Part shown: in pieces, positions 13,608 to 25,052 of the stretch | How the letters are laid out: each line of letters starts with the position of its first letter | Numbering within the stretch: the first letter of the stretch is position 1 | Source of the DNA: a virus | Length of the DNA: 26,580 bases | Strand: one strand, 5' to 3' | Virus record (IMG/VR): IMGVR_UViG_3300029327_000054 | Coordinates: 1 to 26,580 of that record | Notes under the pieces: generated by a model | Told to the model about the DNA's origin: nothing | The model's input: the letters and a program-made list of their open reading frames with translations, nothing else | Databases searched by the model: none | Program-made: the position numbers and the translations under genes

Positions 13608-14477
13608 CTATTTTCGGTTTCGGAGCATCTGTCCGAGGACGCCGTATTCATTTATGTCCTTGGCCACGACCCCGATAATCATCTTGTCGAAGCTGTGGGT
13701 AATCGATCCCTGTTCGAGCTTGAGTGGCATGCTGGACTGATTATCGATTTTGACCTCTACGTTCATCGCCTGGGCTGATTGCCCCGACTTCGTGTCGCCA
13801 TGGCTCCACCCGCCTCTTGGAATTACAACCTCGCCTTTTTGGAGGATGGCCGGAAATTCGTCGGAGGCCAACCCCGAGTGTAGTCGCGGAGCACCGGCCA
13901 TCAGGAGCGGGCTTGCCGCCCTACGGGTACCGTCAAGCCCAACGATCCCTCCCGAGTGGAAATTGAGAAACCAATCCGGAGTTTCGCTCCACTGAAAATA
14001 GCCTTCGCTGGCCCCGCTGCTCCCGCCGGCCCCGCCGCCAAACCCGCCAAAAAGATTCCCGAGCAGATCCTCGAATCCGCGGGTGGCCATTTTAGAGATC
14101 GCTTTGGACCATGCATTGATTAGAAAATTGCAGAAGGCGCTAAAGAAGTCCTCGGCAGAGGAGATTTCGCCCTTGAAAAGGCTGCTGAAGAGGCTTTTAA
14201 AACTCGAACCGGCCGAGCCGACGAATTTTTGGGTGCTGGAATTCACTTCGCTCAGGGCTTTTTGGGTTGACTTGAGGCTTATTTCCGCTTCCCGGCCGAC
14301 CAGTTTCTGCTGCTCACGCGTCTTTTCCAGAGCCAGTTGACGCTCACGCTCGACCGAGGCGATTTCGCTTTGAATCCGGAGCTGTTCTTCCATGGACTTG
14401 ACCGTCTGGTCGAAATCCCGGCTCGAACCGGTCTCACTCGAGTTGATTAAGCTTATGCTCCGCCTGTTTTCTGCCAT
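13608..14477 (-). CDS. Tail tape measure protein, unusually short
   Basis: About 289 residues from the ATG at 14477; an in-frame GTG at 14525 would give 305 and overlap the frameshift extension by 20 bases. Neither start has an ideal ribosome site. Counting from the GTG, residues 38-95 form a charged coiled coil, 122-160 hydrophobic helices (AFCNFLINAWSKAISKM), 156-172 a Gly-rich linker, and 190-243 the segment FHSGGIVG....AGAPRLHSGLASDEFPAILQKGEVVIPRGG that is typical of the C-terminus of lambda-type tape measure proteins. In lambda the tape measure is several times longer (853 aa) and its length sets tail length, so this gene predicts a very short tail or an internal deletion. It follows the G/GT chaperone genes, as in lambda. 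Confidence 0.75.
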   Translation of the reverse strand: MAENRRSISLINSSETGSSRDFDQTVKSMEEQLRIQSEIASVERERQLALEKTREQQKLVGREAEISLKSTQKALSEVNSSTQKFVGSAGSSFKSLFSSLFKGEISSAEDFFSAFCNFLINAWSKAISKMATRGFEDLLGNLFGGFGGGAGGSSGASEGYFQWSETPDWFLNFHSGGIVGLDGTRRAASPLLMAGAPRLHSGLASDEFPAILQKGEVVIPRGGWSHGDTKSGQSAQAMNVEVKIDNQSSMPLKLEQGSITHSFDKMIIGVVAKDINEYGVLGQMLRNRK

Positions 14478-14505: not shown

Positions 14506-15203
14506 TTACTCCGTCGTCTTTTCACGTAGTGATCGGATTCCCTTTAATTTTTGCTTCAGGAATCCCAAATCCTGCCAAAACTGCAACTCCAGTGAATCAT
14601 TTTCCAACCTGAACCCGGCTTCCTGAAGCAAATGGACCCGGAGAAGGGAAAGCGCGTAAGGGCCGGCCTGTTCCCGTCGTGCAGGATTTTTTTCGCAGGC
14701 GCGGCAAAGGTTTCGGATTGTCTTTCCTTCGCAATTTTGGGCAGAATCAGGATCACAGGCCGCGGAGAGAAGAAGGTCTATCTCCCGTTCGAGATCGATT
14801 TTCTCCGGGCCTATTCCTCCAAAGGGCTTTCCGGTTCGGCCTCCCTGCTGGCCCCGGTCGCCTCGAAAACACTTGCAGCAACACTTGCCACGATGTCTCC
14901 GGCGTAGCGTGTCAATAGATCTTTCCAGTCCTGGCGGTACTCCGGGTCGCTCGGGTCCGACGAGAAGAGCTTGCCGTCTATTCCAAGCGTCCCCTTGGTA
15001 AACCCGCTGATTATGCGGGAGCCGAATTTGAGCCGGTTTTCAAAAACCCTGCTCTTCAGCTTTTGGCCACGCCGCTCGAAGACACCATTCTGGTAGGCTG
15101 CCCGTTCCTCGTTGGTCGGCATGCGGTAATAGATTTCGTGTACGTCGCCGGTAATTCCGTCCTGGATATCCAGAATGTTTCGCTCTGCAGCAAAATCGCG
15201 CAT
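14506..15203 (-). CDS. Tail assembly chaperone fusion GT, made by -1 ribosomal frameshift
   Basis: Predicted 232-residue product: residues 1-128 of the G-like chaperone, then 104 residues read in the -1 frame from 14820 down to the TAA at 14506-14508. The -1 frame is open across this whole stretch but lacks an ATG, so it is invisible to a start-based search. It begins GGIGPEKIDLEREIDLLLSA, contains four cysteines including a C-x-x-C pair (LCRAC), a helix ALSLLRVHLLQEAGF and ends KGIRSLREKTTE. In lambda and many siphophages G and GT act together to load tail tube protein onto the tape measure, with GT made by -1 slippage just before the tape measure gene; gene order here is the same. The slippage itself is inferred from sequence. 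Confidence 0.75.
14811..15203 (-). CDS. Tail assembly chaperone, lambda gpG-like (unshifted product)
   Basis: A 130-residue mainly helical protein between the tail tube gene and the tape measure gene. ATG at 15203 is preceded by AAAGGAG with a 5-base spacer. Visible pattern: MRDFAAERNILDIQDGITGD, then YRMPTNEERAAYQNGVFERRG, FGSRIISGFTKG.......SS, DWKDLLTRYAGDIVASVAASVFE, ending in a Glu-rich tail SPLEE. Position, size and the overlapping -1 frame with a slippery heptamer three codons before the stop mark it as the G-type chaperone that coats the tape measure during tail assembly. It is not packaged in lambda, and the same can be expected here. Confidence 0.8.
   Translation of the reverse strand: MRDFAAERNILDIQDGITGDVHEIYYRMPTNEERAAYQNGVFERRGQKLKSRVFENRLKFGSRIISGFTKGTLGIDGKLFSSDPSDPEYRQDWKDLLTRYAGDIVASVAASVFEATGASREAEPESPLEE
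14820..14826 (-). promoter_or_regulatory. Slippery heptamer C CCT TTG for -1 frameshift
   Basis: On the minus strand the reading frame of the G-like gene passes through AGC CCT TTG GAG GAA TAG. CCCTTTG fits the X XXY YYZ rule, allowing both tRNAs to re-pair on CCC TTT. A short hairpin (ATCTC...GAGAT) lies some 30 bases downstream and could stimulate slippage, though it is weak. Confidence 0.7.
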
Positions 15204-15228: not shown

Positions 15229-16158
15229 TCATGAAAACCTTATCAACAACTCATCGTCCCCGCTGCTCATCGCCAGGGAAAAGGAAGCCTTGTAGATCGC
15301 CCTTCCATCCCGGTCACCCGAGCCTAGTTCGCTGTACTGGAGGGCGGGAGACTCGATTGAAAACCTGTTTCCGTCGATGCTCCCGACGGCGAGGTTCAGG
15401 GCCAGTGTGGCGGCGGTTTGCCAGTTGCTCCAGAATGGGTGGGAGGAAACCGCCACGGCCTCAGGATCGAAACTCCCCCGAGGTTTGCGGCCAGTGATCT
15501 CGAAGCCGACGATCCCATCCGCCGCGGCGATGCTTTTGCGTTCAACCACGCTGTTGTTGATCTCGATCTCGAATTTTTCAGATACCGGTCCGAAGCCGTC
15601 GATGGTAAAACCTGCCCCGAGCGCGACCGGTGGAAGGATGCCGCTGAAGGTCTGGGCTGCTGGCGATGCATCCACGGGGGAGTTGTAGAACCCCTTGAAC
15701 TTCCACTCGGCCAGGGCTGGTTTCCCCACTTCGACGCTGATTCTGAAAGATCCACGACATCCGGTAATTTTGTGGAAAAGCCTGTCGAGGTACACATAAA
15801 GAGTGCAAGATTCGAAATTCGTCGAAACCGGCGCGTAGAGCAGGTCTGTTCCGGAATTTACCGTCTGGGCCATGCCGCATGCCCTGAAAAGGACCCCTTC
15901 CCAGCCAAAGGCTGGAAGCGCCCCTTTGGCCCCGGTCCCCTTCATCTCGGTCTTGAAAGCTACCTCGACGCTCCTGGTCCCGCGCAAAAACCTTAGCGGC
16001 GAAAGAGATCCGCGCAGGATATTGCGCTCGACCGCTTCCCCCGCCGGCGAGATATCGAGGTCGCGGACCGCGATCGCATTCGAGGCGGGAGTTGGAATGG
16101 GGTCGATCCCGTATTCTGTTTCGATTTCTGCGAGCACCACCGTGTTTCGAGTGAGCAT
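15229..16158 (-). CDS. Major tail tube protein
   Basis: A 309-residue protein starting at ATG 16158, which has GGGGAG 7 bases upstream; a longer frame begins at 16206 without such a site. It is beta-rich, opens with LTRNTVVLAEIETEYGIDPIPTPASNAIAVRDLDISP, a pattern common to tail tube proteins of Mu-like siphophages, and later holds LRGTRSVEVAFKTEMKGTG, FKGFYNSPVD and a second domain with GFEITGRKPRGSFDPEAV. It sits between the DUF1834 gene and the tail chaperone genes, exactly where the tube gene belongs. The tube is a polymer of this protein around the tape measure. No membrane or signal segments are present. Confidence 0.8.
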   Translation of the reverse strand: MLTRNTVVLAEIETEYGIDPIPTPASNAIAVRDLDISPAGEAVERNILRGSLSPLRFLRGTRSVEVAFKTEMKGTGAKGALPAFGWEGVLFRACGMAQTVNSGTDLLYAPVSTNFESCTLYVYLDRLFHKITGCRGSFRISVEVGKPALAEWKFKGFYNSPVDASPAAQTFSGILPPVALGAGFTIDGFGPVSEKFEIEINNSVVERKSIAAADGIVGFEITGRKPRGSFDPEAVAVSSHPFWSNWQTAATLALNLAVGSIDGNRFSIESPALQYSELGSGDRDGRAIYKASFSLAMSSGDDELLIRFS

Positions 16159-16187: not shown

Positions 16188-16637
16188 TCAGGCGGCAAAC
16201 CGGCACCGGGTTTTGAAAAGAATCTGGTAGAGCGCGAAGTCGCTGCTGCCGGCCATCGCTTCCTCGGAAACCGGGGAGAGCGGCTCCATGTCGATGCCGC
16301 AGGATTGGCCGGACAAGGCTACGCGTATGTCTTCAAGCACTTGGTAAACTCCTCTTTCCCCCCCCGCCCCATGCCGCACGGCCGAATCTCCCCTCAAATT
16401 GCGTACGGCCGCTATCACGCCGAAAAACATCTCCCGGTCCTGGCAGCCCGAAATCTTTTGGGAGTACTTGCCCCGCTCGTAGATGACGAACAGCGCGGGG
16501 CAAATGGGCGCCATCTCCTCGATTGCATCGATATCCCTGCCAAGGAACTCGGAAATCGATCCGAGCGTCCGGATATATGGAAGCTCGCTCGAAAGGCGCC
16601 CGATTATGGCCTGTTCAACGTCGGCTACGGTCGGCAT
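16188..16637 (-). CDS. DUF1834 protein, Mu gp37-like neck/tail connector
   Basis: A 149-residue protein. I place the start at the ATG at 16637, with AAGGA 8 bases upstream; a TTG two codons earlier is too close to that site. The N-terminal pattern VADVEQAIIGRLSSELPYIRTLGS, then ICPALFVIYERGKY and EMFFGVIAAVRNLRG, with the later YQVLEDIRVALSGQSCG, is typical of DUF1834 proteins encoded next to DUF1320 genes in Mu-like phages. They are thought to act at the head-tail junction, by position. Its 3' end runs into the upstream region of the tube gene. Confidence 0.8.
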   Translation of the reverse strand: MPTVADVEQAIIGRLSSELPYIRTLGSISEFLGRDIDAIEEMAPICPALFVIYERGKYSQKISGCQDREMFFGVIAAVRNLRGDSAVRHGAGGERGVYQVLEDIRVALSGQSCGIDMEPLSPVSEEAMAGSSDFALYQILFKTRCRFAA

Positions 16638-19716: not shown

Positions 19717-20952
19717 TCAGTCCGTCGTTCCGGTTGAAGCCAGTTTGAAGCGTTCGGCAAGCTGATCGCGGCTAAATTGAAAGCCTATCTCCGACAGAAT
19801 CTTGTAGACTTCCGCAATGGATTTCATGTCCTCGGGCGGCTCGCACAGGAAGTGGAAACGAGGCACGGGCGCATCCCAGCCGAAGTTGAAGCCGACGAGA
19901 GGGCGCAGGATCTGCTGGGTTATCGTTTTGGAGAGCGCCTTGCAGTCGGCCTCCACGATGTCCTGCCGGACTTCGGAATGCACTCGCCCAAGCGCATACG
20001 ATCCAGCAGCCTTGCCTCCCGGCTCCGATGTGAGGGTCTGTCCGAGGACAGCTTTTGACATTTGTGCATCGCAAAAAGAGGCCAGGCTCTCGTAGACATT
20101 GAGCGATGAACCCTTCTGGGCCTCGATGAATTCGATCTCCGTGGACTTCGATATGATGCCCGCAGCATCCGACCCGAGCGAGCGAACGGCATGGATCAGC
20201 GCCTCCCGGTCCGCCCTGGTCGCACCCGGCTCATATTTGCCGATCCGAAGCGGCATGCCGTACACTTCCGCAAACCCGATCCAGTCTTTCAGGGCGTAGT
20301 TTTTGAACAGGTACATCCAGGCGCACACCCTCATAATCCCCGCGCGGGTGTCGTAGCCGGATCGGGAGCGGCACCGGTGATAGGCAAACTTGAACGACGG
20401 AGGCTCAATACCCTGGATGGGGTCCTGTTCGGTGAGGATTCTTGGGGTAAGAGAATTCCAGAAAGTGATTTTCTTAGGGTGCACCCACCGAAGGCCTCGG
20501 ATACCGACCTGGCCCTCCGATGCCTCCCAGAGGATTTCCAAAATCGAATACCCTTTGCCAAGTGCATCGAGCAGGTCCAGGACGTTTTCGTCGAAATCTG
20601 AAAGCCCCTGAATGGACGAGCGGCAAAACTCCGCCATTTCAACGCTCGGGCCGCTGCTGTCGTAAGGGGCCACTTCCCAGTCGAGCCCCTGGACGGCCAT
20701 CTTTCGCGTCTGGAAAAGGCTTGCAAGGTGTGCGTCCTTTTCCTCCATTTCTTCGAAAAGCTCCGCCTGGCTCAAAACATCACCGCCGTCGGCCTGCCTG
20801 AAGATCCGAGCCAGCCGCTCGGGTGTTAGCCCGCTCGAAGGATAGCCGCTCCACCGGTCGCGAAGCGTCGCCGTGGCGATTTCCCGCATGTCGGGTTTTA
20901 AGGACCGGCTTACCGGTATGGGCTGGCTGAACTGGTCATAGAGAACTGTCAT
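19717..20952 (-). CDS. Portal protein, DUF935 / Mu gp29-like
   Basis: A 411-residue protein, ATG at 20952 with AGGA 8 bases upstream. It is a clear DUF935 portal: LTPERLARIFRQADGGDV, EMEEKDAHLASLFQTRKMAVQGLDWEV, LLDALGKGYSILEILW, RWVHPKKITFW, KNYALKDWIGFAEVYGMPLRIGKY, DAAGIISKSTEIEFIEAQKG, MSKAVLGQTLTSEPGGKAAGSYALGRVHSEVRQDIVEADC and PRFHFLCEPPEDMKSIAEVY. Twelve copies should form the DNA gate at the capsid vertex and dock the terminase. The family is often about 480-530 residues; this one stops soon after QFSRDQLAERFKLAS, so the usual C-terminal extension is absent. It is separated from the terminase gene by the divergent cargo island. Confidence 0.92.
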   Translation of the reverse strand: MTVLYDQFSQPIPVSRSLKPDMREIATATLRDRWSGYPSSGLTPERLARIFRQADGGDVLSQAELFEEMEEKDAHLASLFQTRKMAVQGLDWEVAPYDSSGPSVEMAEFCRSSIQGLSDFDENVLDLLDALGKGYSILEILWEASEGQVGIRGLRWVHPKKITFWNSLTPRILTEQDPIQGIEPPSFKFAYHRCRSRSGYDTRAGIMRVCAWMYLFKNYALKDWIGFAEVYGMPLRIGKYEPGATRADREALIHAVRSLGSDAAGIISKSTEIEFIEAQKGSSLNVYESLASFCDAQMSKAVLGQTLTSEPGGKAAGSYALGRVHSEVRQDIVEADCKALSKTITQQILRPLVGFNFGWDAPVPRFHFLCEPPEDMKSIAEVYKILSEIGFQFSRDQLAERFKLASTGTTD

Positions 20953-21304: not shown

Positions 21305-21382
21305 CACATCAAATGATTGAAAATTCGCTTATTGCCGGCATCGCTTACCACGAATAATTATCCTCTGGACAGGGGAAAAGGA

Positions 21383-21625
21383 TTGATAACCACAGAGTAT
21401 TTCAAGTACATGCGGAAAAGGCCTGATAGGGCTATAATATTGGATGAGTGGATAGATCGAGCAATCAAGTCACCACAAAAAACGGAAGTCCAGTCCGACG
21501 GCAGAATACGGAAATGGGCATGGATATTGGAGGAGAAGAAGTTCCTTCGGGTCATTCTCCTGGAGGACGGGGAAACCATCCATAACGCCTTTTTTGACAG
21601 ATCCTTCAAGGAGAGTCGGCAATGA
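21383..21625 (+). CDS. Small DUF4258-like protein, first gene of a coupled pair
   Basis: An 80-residue protein from a TTG at 21383, which has AGGGGAAAAGGA just upstream; an upstream TTG at 21317 in the same frame lacks a ribosome site. The sequence ITTEYFKYMRKRPDRAIILDEWIDRAI...KTEVQSDGRIRKWAWI, then KFLRVILLEDGETIHNAFFDRSFK, resembles the small compact alpha/beta proteins (DUF4258-like or similar) that are often encoded directly before DUF2283 genes. Its stop overlaps the next ATG (ATGA), so the two are translationally coupled. Such pairs have toxin-antitoxin-like architecture, but I know of no proof of activity and the family label is tentative. Confidence 0.7.
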   Translation: MITTEYFKYMRKRPDRAIILDEWIDRAIKSPQKTEVQSDGRIRKWAWILEEKKFLRVILLEDGETIHNAFFDRSFKESRQ

Positions 21626-21843
21626 GGGTCAAATATTTTTCAGATACCGATACTGCACTGGTTGAATTTACGGATCACGAGGTAGCGGAGACAAGAGAGA
21701 TTAGCGAAAACATATATGTTGACCTGGACAAACAGGGAAACTTGGTGAGCATGACTATTGAGCATGCACGGACAAATGCCCGGCTCGATGAATTCGCATA
21801 CATGGAAATCGGCATCTCGCAAGAGGAAGGTCGAACCGCATGA
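21622..21843 (+). CDS. DUF2283 family small protein
   Basis: A 73-residue protein, ATG at 21622 with AAGGAG 8 bases upstream inside the preceding gene. It has the full DUF2283 pattern: MRVKYFSDTDTALVEFTDHEVAETREISENIYVDLDKQGNLVSMTIEHAR and a short tail. DUF2283 proteins are small, widespread, acidic, of unknown function, and are commonly paired with a partner gene such as the one overlapping here. It is transcribed opposite to the phage late genes. Confidence 0.85.
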   Translation: MRVKYFSDTDTALVEFTDHEVAETREISENIYVDLDKQGNLVSMTIEHARTNARLDEFAYMEIGISQEEGRTA

Positions 21844-21871
21844 GCCAACCCACCTCGAATTAGCCTTCCGT

Positions 21872-21915
21872 CTCGTTGATTGACACCCGTTCATTGCCTA
21901 AAGTATATTCTCAAC
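21872..21915 (+). promoter_or_regulatory. Cargo promoter 2 (sigma70), second copy of the 44-base direct repeat
   Basis: TTGACA at 21880-21885, 18-base spacer, TATATT at 21904-21909, in a block 40/44 identical to 21261-21304. It lies just after the DUF2283 gene and about 205 bases before the BBP7 start codon, giving that gene its own promoter and a long leader. Confidence 0.75.
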
Positions 21916-22120
21916 ATTCCCAGAGATTAAAAACAGATTAATTGCCGGTCCTGAAGGCTGCTCCACCTCAGAGTGCTCGTATAGAGTAGTTTTGGAAGCT
22001 CGTCGTATTCGGTTGTGGATGGTTCGGGGGGGTGTCTCAGAAGCTATTTCGGCGGTTCTGGTGCATAGCACAACTCATTTCTTATTCCTGTTCTTGTTCT
22101 TTTATGGAGGGGGCTCCGTT

Positions 22121-23278
22121 ATGAAAAAGGCAGTTTTGTGCAGTCTCGCTTACGTGCTCATATGGGCAGGCCTATCATTGGCTCAGACGGTCAACACTCC
22201 TTCAACCGCACCGGCTGCCAACTCCACGGCCAGCCCATTTTACGTAAGCGCGGAAGCGCTCCTGTGGTGGATGAAGGATGGTCCGGCCCCACCGCCGCTC
22301 GTTAGCACCGGAATCATCGGTGAAGCTGGAACGGAAGTGGTATTGGGCGGAAAATCGCTCGATACCGATATGCACCCCGGCTTCCGTGTTACGGTTGGTT
22401 ATTGGGAAAAGGAAAGATGGGGCGTTGAGGCGGGGTTTTTCTATTTGACATCACAATCGACCGGACGGAGCGTGAGTTCTTCCGGCCAGGCCGATTCCCA
22501 ATTATTCGCTGTCCCCTTCTATAACGTCCTTCGCCATGAAGAGGACTTCTCATTCCTATCTTTGCCCGGCGTCTTCTCGGGACAGGCGCATGAAGAGATG
22601 AGCTCCCGAATGTTCGGCGCCGAGCTAATGGGCGGGACCACTCTGGTTTCGACCGGTGCATGCAAGGTGGATTTCCTTGGAGGTTTTCGGTACCTGAACC
22701 TGCGCGAAAAATTCTCATTTGCGACAAGCAGCCCCTTTATCGATGTTCCAAATGATATCTACCAGACGCTGGATCAGTTCAATACCGCCAACCACTTCTA
22801 TGGAGTTCAGGCGGGCTTGCGCGCCAGTTCCGGATGGGGTCCCCTGACGGTCAAAGGCACGTTTAAGCTTGGCCTGGGCGCCGTGGTCCAAACCGTCGAT
22901 ATAGACGGATACCTTCTAACCAACGAATTTAACGCCCTCGGCTCCGCCCTTAAGTATCCCGGCGGCTACTTCGCCCTGCCCACCAATATTGGCGAACATA
23001 CCCAGACTGACCTCGCGGTGATCCCGGAGATCGGGCTAAACCTCGGCTACAAAATCACCGACCGAATCAATGTTTTCGCCGGCTATACATTCCTTTATGC
23101 GAACAACGTGGTTCGACCCGGCGACCAGATTGACCGCGGCATCAACCCGTCGCAGGGCTCCACATTCACCGGCATCCCGGCTCCGGAACTAACAGGGGTG
23201 GCCAGACCGGCGTTCTCGTTTCAGCAATCGGAGTTCTGGGCACAGGGTGTCAACATGGGGGTCGAGTACCGATTTTAG
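22121..23278 (+). CDS. BBP7-family outer-membrane beta-barrel protein
   Basis: A 385-residue exported barrel. The frame is open from a TTG at 21992, but the real start is the ATG at 22121, with GGAGGGGG upstream and an ideal Sec signal peptide (MKKAVLCSLAYVLIWAGLSLA, cleaved before QTVN). The mature protein opens with FYVSAEALLWWMKDGPAPPPLVS and GFRVTVGYW, later FLGGFRYLNLRE, FYGVQAGLRAS, LAVIPEIGLNLGYKITDRINVFAGYTFLYANNVVRPGDQIDR and ends ...MGVEYRF, a C-terminal Phe as outer-membrane proteins require. These are the marks of the putative beta-barrel porin 7 family, known from Planctomycetes and some deltaproteobacteria. It is the main cargo of the island and has its own promoter and terminator. 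Inserted in a prophage, it may change the cell surface of the lysogen, for example to block superinfection, but that is inference. Confidence 0.9.
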   Translation: MKKAVLCSLAYVLIWAGLSLAQTVNTPSTAPAANSTASPFYVSAEALLWWMKDGPAPPPLVSTGIIGEAGTEVVLGGKSLDTDMHPGFRVTVGYWEKERWGVEAGFFYLTSQSTGRSVSSSGQADSQLFAVPFYNVLRHEEDFSFLSLPGVFSGQAHEEMSSRMFGAELMGGTTLVSTGACKVDFLGGFRYLNLREKFSFATSSPFIDVPNDIYQTLDQFNTANHFYGVQAGLRASSGWGPLTVKGTFKLGLGAVVQTVDIDGYLLTNEFNALGSALKYPGGYFALPTNIGEHTQTDLAVIPEIGLNLGYKITDRINVFAGYTFLYANNVVRPGDQIDRGINPSQGSTFTGIPAPELTGVARPAFSFQQSEFWAQGVNMGVEYRF

Positions 23279-23591: not shown

Positions 23592-25052
23592 TCAGTAGCC
23601 TTTGAAAGAGGCGGTGCGGCGCTCTCCGATAGCCTCATATTCCACCGGGCCGCCATCGCTACGGGAGGCGGCATGCCAGGCGAGTGCGCAGGCTATGGCT
23701 GCGTCGCCGTGGCGCTTGCCGCCGTCCCGGCCTTTTCCGCGGTAATTTTCGGGGACTCTCGCAACGCCTTTTTCCATTCTCACCGAGCGCAGGTCGTCCA
23801 GTATATCGGGGTCTTTGGGGATCAGGATGGTTCTGTCCTCGAAGGCCGCACGGCACGAGGCCATATTTTCGAGGTACCATTTATCGGTCAGCATCACCTG
23901 CTTGATGCGCCGGCTTCCGTAGCGCTGCATGGCGACCTCGGCCAGGTAGTGGCCGTTTCCGCGCGCGTCCATTGCACCTCCCGAGAAGCGCGGAAGCCTG
24001 TCCGCGATATGGAAAAGTACCTGCTCCTGCTGGCGGAACGGAACATTTCGAAGCTCGACGACAAAGGGGGCGCGGTACCTCATCTTTCCGATTTCTTGCA
24101 GAGGGAAGATGACGGTTAGATCGCCGCTTCGGCCAAAATCTTCGCCGAAAAACGAGGGTCGCTCCGGTGGAAGGTCTTCCATGAGCGCAGTGACGTTTTG
24201 GTTCAGCCAATCGTTCATTTCGGCCCACCGCCGCTCTTCGGGCAATTCCGCGAACTCGGGCCTGCATGCCTTGCGAATTACTGGAATATCTTCATCCATG
24301 CACGATTCGATGAGGGCTCGTGGAATCCATGCGCCAGACCCACGGCTCGGAACGCAGAAAAGTTCCTCGTCCGCAAACTCGCCGTAGAAATCGACTAGTT
24401 CCTTCCTCCAGGCCGATTCGGACCCTTCCGACCAGGGCTTCCCGGTCCGCAGGCAAATGCGCCTGAAAAGCCCTTGTTGCAGTGCATCATCGAGGGTTAT
24501 CCGGTGGATCGAGTAAGGCTTTTTACCCGAACGCACATCATTTACGAGTTCATTAAAAGGATTTTCATCGCCGTTGTGGGTGCTTATGACGGCCAGCCTG
24601 CCGCCCCACATGAGCAGGGCGACGGCGGCCTTGAGGAGCTGAGGCAGGTCGTTGTGGAATGCGGCTTCATCAATTACCACCTTGCCCTGCTTGCCCCGGA
24701 GATTGCTCGGGCGGCTCGATAGGGCAGTTACCCTGAAATTTGACGCAAAACGTATTCGATAGCCGAGGATATCCTTCTCCTCGTCCCGGATCATCGCCTC
24801 TTCCATCCGGTCGGCGGCGATGCCCAGGTTTCGCGCCCAAAATGCCGTGTCGTTTATGAACTCGATTGCCATTTCGCGGCTGTATCCAATGTACCAGACG
24901 TTCATTCCGCCGGTGGAAGCCGCCGTTAGGGCTGAATCCGCCGCTTCGCACCAGCTCAGCCCCACCCGTCGTGACTTTTCGCAAACTTTCACCGGCGCGG
25001 GATCGTAAATCCACCTTTGCTGGTAGGGGAGAAGGGCGTAAGGCGATATCAT
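23592..25052 (-). CDS. Terminase large subunit, Mu gp28-like
   Basis: A 486-residue packaging motor and nuclease. ATPase part: a Walker A variant CEKSRRVGLSW at 24-34, Walker B VVIDE at 125-129 and the coupling motif ISTHNG at 156-161. Nuclease part: the acidic residues Asp305 in EDFGRSGD, Asp362 in MDARGNGHYLAE and Asp450 in KRHGDAAIACALA, the usual RNase H-like triad. Length and motifs are those of Mu gp28-type terminases. The ATG at 25052 overlaps the small-subunit stop as ATGA. In Mu-like phages the portal follows immediately; here the 2.6-kb divergent island intervenes. Confidence 0.93.
   Translation of the reverse strand: MISPYALLPYQQRWIYDPAPVKVCEKSRRVGLSWCEAADSALTAASTGGMNVWYIGYSREMAIEFINDTAFWARNLGIAADRMEEAMIRDEEKDILGYRIRFASNFRVTALSSRPSNLRGKQGKVVIDEAAFHNDLPQLLKAAVALLMWGGRLAVISTHNGDENPFNELVNDVRSGKKPYSIHRITLDDALQQGLFRRICLRTGKPWSEGSESAWRKELVDFYGEFADEELFCVPSRGSGAWIPRALIESCMDEDIPVIRKACRPEFAELPEERRWAEMNDWLNQNVTALMEDLPPERPSFFGEDFGRSGDLTVIFPLQEIGKMRYRAPFVVELRNVPFRQQEQVLFHIADRLPRFSGGAMDARGNGHYLAEVAMQRYGSRRIKQVMLTDKWYLENMASCRAAFEDRTILIPKDPDILDDLRSVRMEKGVARVPENYRGKGRDGGKRHGDAAIACALAWHAASRSDGGPVEYEAIGERRTASFKGY

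Follow-up and report, generated by a model that had tools for sequence, protein, structure and literature searches.

A probable lambda-type G/GT tail chaperone pair with a predicted -1 slip site, CCCTTTG, in a Desulfarculales prophage

The window, which is the whole stretch of 26,580 nucleotides analyzed, belongs to a prophage of a Desulfarculales bacterium, in which the head genes are Mu-like and the tail genes lambda-like. Two overlapping ORFs, G and T, lie between its tail tube and tape measure genes. The locus is predicted to be a lambda-type G/GT pair, in which T would be reached by -1 ribosome slippage at the heptamer CCCTTTG; the probability of this reading is put at about 0.92. Judged by sequence comparison, the protein pair is new, and the G/GT arrangement and mechanism are already known.

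Anatomy of the G/T locus

Genes of the locus are encoded on the minus strand, in the order tail tube, G, T, tape measure. The tail tube gene (Phage_tube_2; 15229–16158; PF18906, E 2.9e-19; PHROG 290), whose longest ORF starts at 16206, is followed by G (14811–15203, minus strand), which runs from an ATG at 15203 to a TAG at 14813–14811 and encodes a G-like tail assembly chaperone of 130 aa. The T-like domain (14506–14820, minus strand) would be translated in the -1 frame by ribosomes that have slipped, and spans 104 codons up to a TAA at 14508–14506. The gene after T (13608–14477, minus strand; PHROG 2335, C-terminal part, E 3e-17) encodes a short tape measure protein; its start was set by comparison with the relative L002. 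An earlier sequence-only reading had proposed the order G, GT, tape measure: this order holds, the tail tube gene precedes G, and the same synteny is found in relatives.

CCCTTTG resides at 14820–14826 on the minus strand, 6 nt before the G stop. The X XXY YYZ register was confirmed base by base, since the first C of the heptamer is a third codon base in G (offset 377, 377 mod 3 = 2). The 0 frame reads AGC CCT TTG GAG GAA TAG, the -1 frame CCC TTT GGA GGA ATA. The latter is open from 15039 to the TAA at 14508–14506. An independent start of T, which the sequence-only reading had set against itself, was not encountered: the T frame lacks ATG, as claimed, and its first ATG, GTG or TTG is a TTG at 14631, only ATT, CTG, ATA and ATC codons being found upstream. 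The length of the predicted G-T fusion was recomputed, and is 232 aa as originally given.

Most ribosomes would terminate at 14813–14811 and release G at 130 aa. A minor share would slip back one base on C_CCU_UUG, with the Pro and Leu tRNAs re-pairing with CCC and UUU, and continue to the end of the 232-aa fusion. By analogy with lambda, G would form a coat on the tape measure protein, with GT recruiting tail tube subunits through its T part. In E. coli, C_CC.U_UU.G shifts at >0.10% without stimulators, and it was among the 21 heptamers selected for further work in a survey; the top-efficiency class for U runs is H_HH.U_UU.Y, and C_CC.U_UU.G falls outside it (PMC4066793). Imperfect re-pairing of the A-site Leu tRNA, from UUG to UUU, speaks against slippage. 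A low slip efficiency would fit the biology, because lambda makes G and GT at a ratio of ~30:1 (PMC5009743). When the literature was searched for CCCTTTG as a tail slip site, a search which Xu et al. 2004 lay outside, only the E. coli survey was found. C_CCU_UUG, known in that literature solely through the reporter survey, is an uncommon but legal slip site, and the G/T family provides a natural, repeatedly conserved use of it.

Two elements flanking the heptamer are possible frameshift stimulators. The SD-like CAGGGAGGC (14839–14847, minus strand) ends 12 nt upstream of the heptamer, and its duplex with the anti-SD (-11.1 kcal/mol) is the strongest of the tested places in the G gene. Members of the window clade and those of the AAA type have it in strong form, but not every CCCTTTN user does. 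Downstream, a stem-loop is predicted at 14749–14818 on the minus strand, with the core stem starting ~6 nt past the heptamer (folding z -2.1 in 100 nt, -3.6 in 75 nt); it is partly retained in a relative at 92%. A downstream stem as general stimulator of CCCTTTN users was rejected (mean z -0.57), despite its strength in the window, and is somewhat more general in AAA-type users (mean z -1.24).

Other features of the window were recorded. The tape measure protein, only 289 aa long, matches a profile of 1536 positions at its C-terminal end, and those of many G/T relatives measure ~850–920 aa or more; under the lambda rule, should it apply, 289 aa would correspond to a tail of only ~40 nm. A block on the opposite strand (21317–23278) sits between the Mu-like portal gene (19717–20952) and the terminase gene (23592–25052). 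It includes two small overlapping ORFs (21317–21625 and 21622–21843) and a gene for a BBP7-family outer membrane porin (21992–23278, opposite strand; PF07585, E 2.6e-73), which is unexpected inside a head gene cluster.

Frame and switch site in relatives

A two-sequence T alignment searched against viral contigs retrieved no relatives, and the family was opened by an alignment of four G proteins. From the latter, followed by wider alignments and 296 whole genomes, 52 non-redundant G/T pairs were collected. Each of the 52 has its T in the -1 frame, and the conservation that the sequence-only reading had named as a check is thus found throughout. An in-register X_XXY_YYZ heptamer lies within 20 nt of the G stop in 34/52 pairs; elsewhere in G genes, in-register XXXYYYZ motifs mark 0.3% of codons (10/3221). 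CCCTTTN is in register in 20 of the 52 pairs, as CCCTTTG (18), CCCTTTA (1) and CCCTTTT (1); the remaining heptamers are AAAAAAC (5), GGGAAAG (4), GGGAAAC (3), GGGTTTT (1) and CCCAAAC (1). CCCTTTG does differ from the GGGAAAG of lambda, as had been remarked, but is the commonest slip site of the family and no one-off. Judged from the window sequence alone, the open frame and the heptamer would not settle the matter; chance is ruled out because both are conserved in relatives. Tail tube and tape measure genes flank G and T wherever the neighbours could be identified.

The shift is confined to the heptamer in some relatives. In L029, L042, L088 and L090 the frames share no more than 16 nt, with CCCTTTG inside, and therefore the switch must sit there. 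The Desulfarculales MAG UBA696 includes a contig that carries the locus with a 100% identical G protein. The 92% relative (L002/L004, MAG UBA702) differs from the window at 56 positions in G and 57 in T, and retains the heptamer within 37 identical nt; a relative at 41% (L005) features C_CCT_TTT in the same place. In a tree built from 24 G proteins CCCTTTN users are scattered over separate parts, which makes repeated gain, loss or exchange of the site probable.

Heptamers are missing in 11/52 relatives, which carry at the conserved junction either CCRGGAS or GACCCTAC. Six of these members feature C_CRG_GA[CG]_T[GA]A, mostly as GAC CAG GAC TGA (L037 2995–3753, L040 2995–3714, L041 2334–3068, L106, L113, L117). 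The frames of L041 overlap only 7 nt at the junction (CCAGGACTGA), and the switch must therefore fall within CCAGGAC. In the CCRGGAS members, L113 excepted, translation could re-initiate at the CTG of CTGA. In the other type, GAC_CCT_AC (L030 2935–3591, L046 2995–3702, L099, L104, L131), the junction reads GGA CCC TAC in -1, and would allow one Pro tRNA to slip on C_CCU. For the heptamer-less members, bypassing that takes off at GAC and lands on a GAC or GAT further down was considered and dropped, the landing Asp being no evidence for it because this residue belongs to an EDL motif common to heptamer users. L050 and L112 have a heptamer only further upstream. In a distant clade (L093, L094, L096–L098) T has its own start codon, an ATG or GTG overlapping the G end in L094 and L096–L098 and an ATG further on in L093, and G and T look like separate cistrons.

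Annotated tail chaperone frameshifts are reported to lack an XXXYYY motif commonly (PMC10885494), and the heptamer-less members therefore correspond to a known gap. They are also the part that could prove surprising. It is conceivable, though rather unlikely, that one chaperone family rebuilt the G to T switch in several ways, CCCTTTG being dominant and CCRGGA[CG]T[GA]A, which has no evident tRNA re-pairing logic, being a new -1 recoding signal, and that T is a new adaptor whose four cysteines possibly bind zinc. Because one homologous family includes versions of the AAA type and of the UUU type, versions with no heptamer and versions in which T has its own start, it provides a natural series for the origin and replacement of frame-switch sites.

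Own starts in the distant clade bear on whether T of the window could be a separate protein, made by re-initiation after G from a non-canonical start, ATA 14814 or ATC 14799. GGAGGA (14820–14815), a strong SD-like sequence, is found directly before the T region and ATA 14814, and GGAG precedes ATC 14799. Starts of either kind are very rare, however, no nucleotide separates GGAGGA from ATA, and the window frame offers no ATG, GTG or TTG before 14631. Re-initiation would not require a heptamer, yet 20 relatives, most of them without a nearby start, retain one in register. Translation of T as a separate product is accordingly held to be very improbable, and slippage on CCCTTTG is preferred.

A fusion would likewise arise if RNA polymerase, rather than the ribosome, slipped at the site. 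Transcriptional slippage uses homopolymers far longer than three-base runs, and the runs of identical bases in the window site measure three only; L050, which has a T7 run, and those relatives that use AAAAAAC would suit it better, and for the window this origin of the T frame is scarcely credible. The same holds for a sequencing error or a decayed gene, which might be suspected in a metagenome-derived sequence. The -1 relation recurs in independent assemblies and in the 52 non-redundant relatives, and T is under purifying selection; error and decay are already refuted, because the relation is conserved. Ribosome slippage at CCCTTTG is thus left as by far the most probable route to T.

Properties and identity of the G and T proteins

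Comparison of the window with the 92% relative gave dN/dS values of 0.32 for T and 0.05 for G, indicating at the sequence level that T is under purifying selection and is a real protein-coding frame. A codon-position test on T, restricted to this pair, was not significant (p = 0.065), so that the weight for T coding rests on distant conservation. T proteins share a conserved block, with a pattern like GGYPF..DDL..E.W.DLG, and a four-cysteine motif, C-x7-C...C-x2-C, was identified in 23/24 aligned members, with varying spacing in a few. That the four cysteines bind zinc is conjecture; AlphaFold gave a model of T with a mean pLDDT of 76 that is poor in the cysteine region (54–63). A Foldseek comparison of the model with the PDB was uninformative.

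Profile searches of Pfam, PHROGs and NCBIfam with G, T and all family members gave no credible match, and the search of the -1 frame translation for tail chaperone T families, advised by the sequence-only reading, was equally negative in these collections. No credible match came from PDB sequences searched with G and T, nor from phage records searched by tblastn, whether the query was the fusion of the window or a G or T from distant members; G as query against plasmids gave no match. The predicted G fold (mean pLDDT 85) had no match in the PDB by Foldseek, but among viral models it repeatedly gave weak matches named tail assembly chaperone, the best named one at E ~0.03, with probabilities of 0.82–0.99 for the better of these weak matches. 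The T-like identity originally proposed is hence favoured by position and arrangement, and finds no counterpart among profiles of known T or G families. Since Pfam, PHROGs, NCBIfam and the PDB hold no match, the proteins are regarded as an undescribed G/T family which would use a known lambda-type mechanism. T genes of this kind, missed by Pfam, PHROGs and NCBIfam, may stay unannotated.

Comparison with known systems

The lambda G/GT locus features the same order of tail tube, G, T and tape measure genes, an X_XXY_YYZ heptamer near the G end, and a T in the -1 frame without its own start. The slip sites differ, G_GGA_AAG in lambda and C_CCU_UUG in the window. The window T differs from the lambda system also in its four-cysteine motif and in having no detectable match to known chaperone families of Pfam and PHROGs.

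Ten reference phages whose tail tube belongs to the family of the window tail tube were examined, and all ten have a -1 T, reached at AAAAAAC, GGGAAAC or AAAAAAG. In RcapMu (gp49/gp50), whose entry is annotated 'potential -1 frameshift', as in Rhodobacter RC1, Thiobacimonas ThpS-P1 and Synechococcus S-CBS1/S-CBS3, a homologous tail tube gene adjoins the pair. The -1 T of RcapMu and related phages follows GGGAAAC or AAAAAAC, and RcapMu, RC1 and ThpS-P1 share Mu-like head genes with the window prophage. G/T proteins of the RcapMu type are Phage_TAC_4 (PF08748) and DUF1799 (PF08809). Some reference phages match DUF1799; this does not extend to the window T, in which DUF1799 was not found. The window pair belongs to another family, without a profile match to either (profile comparison probability <2%).

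Alteromonas P24, Agrobacterium JP1 and Rhodobacter RcKickapoo share with the window the tail tube family, a -1 T and four conserved Cys. Their slip sites are AAAAAAC or AAAAAAG, and their T differs from the window T in Cys spacing and has no profile similarity to it. The deposited annotation of P24 and JP1 omits or truncates the T region (L016 5269–5571, L015 5630–5974); the -1 frame after AAAAAAC is nevertheless open in both, with the four conserved Cys.

D3112-like Pseudomonas phages resemble the window prophage in combining a Mu-type genome with a siphophage tail, and in one of them, PaMx73, a -1 shift is predicted in the tail chaperone genes ORF35/36 (PMC4378225). The predicted PaMx73 slip site, T TTT TTC, is located 43 codons before the stop (PMC4378225), whereas CCCTTTG in the window lies 6 nt before the G stop.
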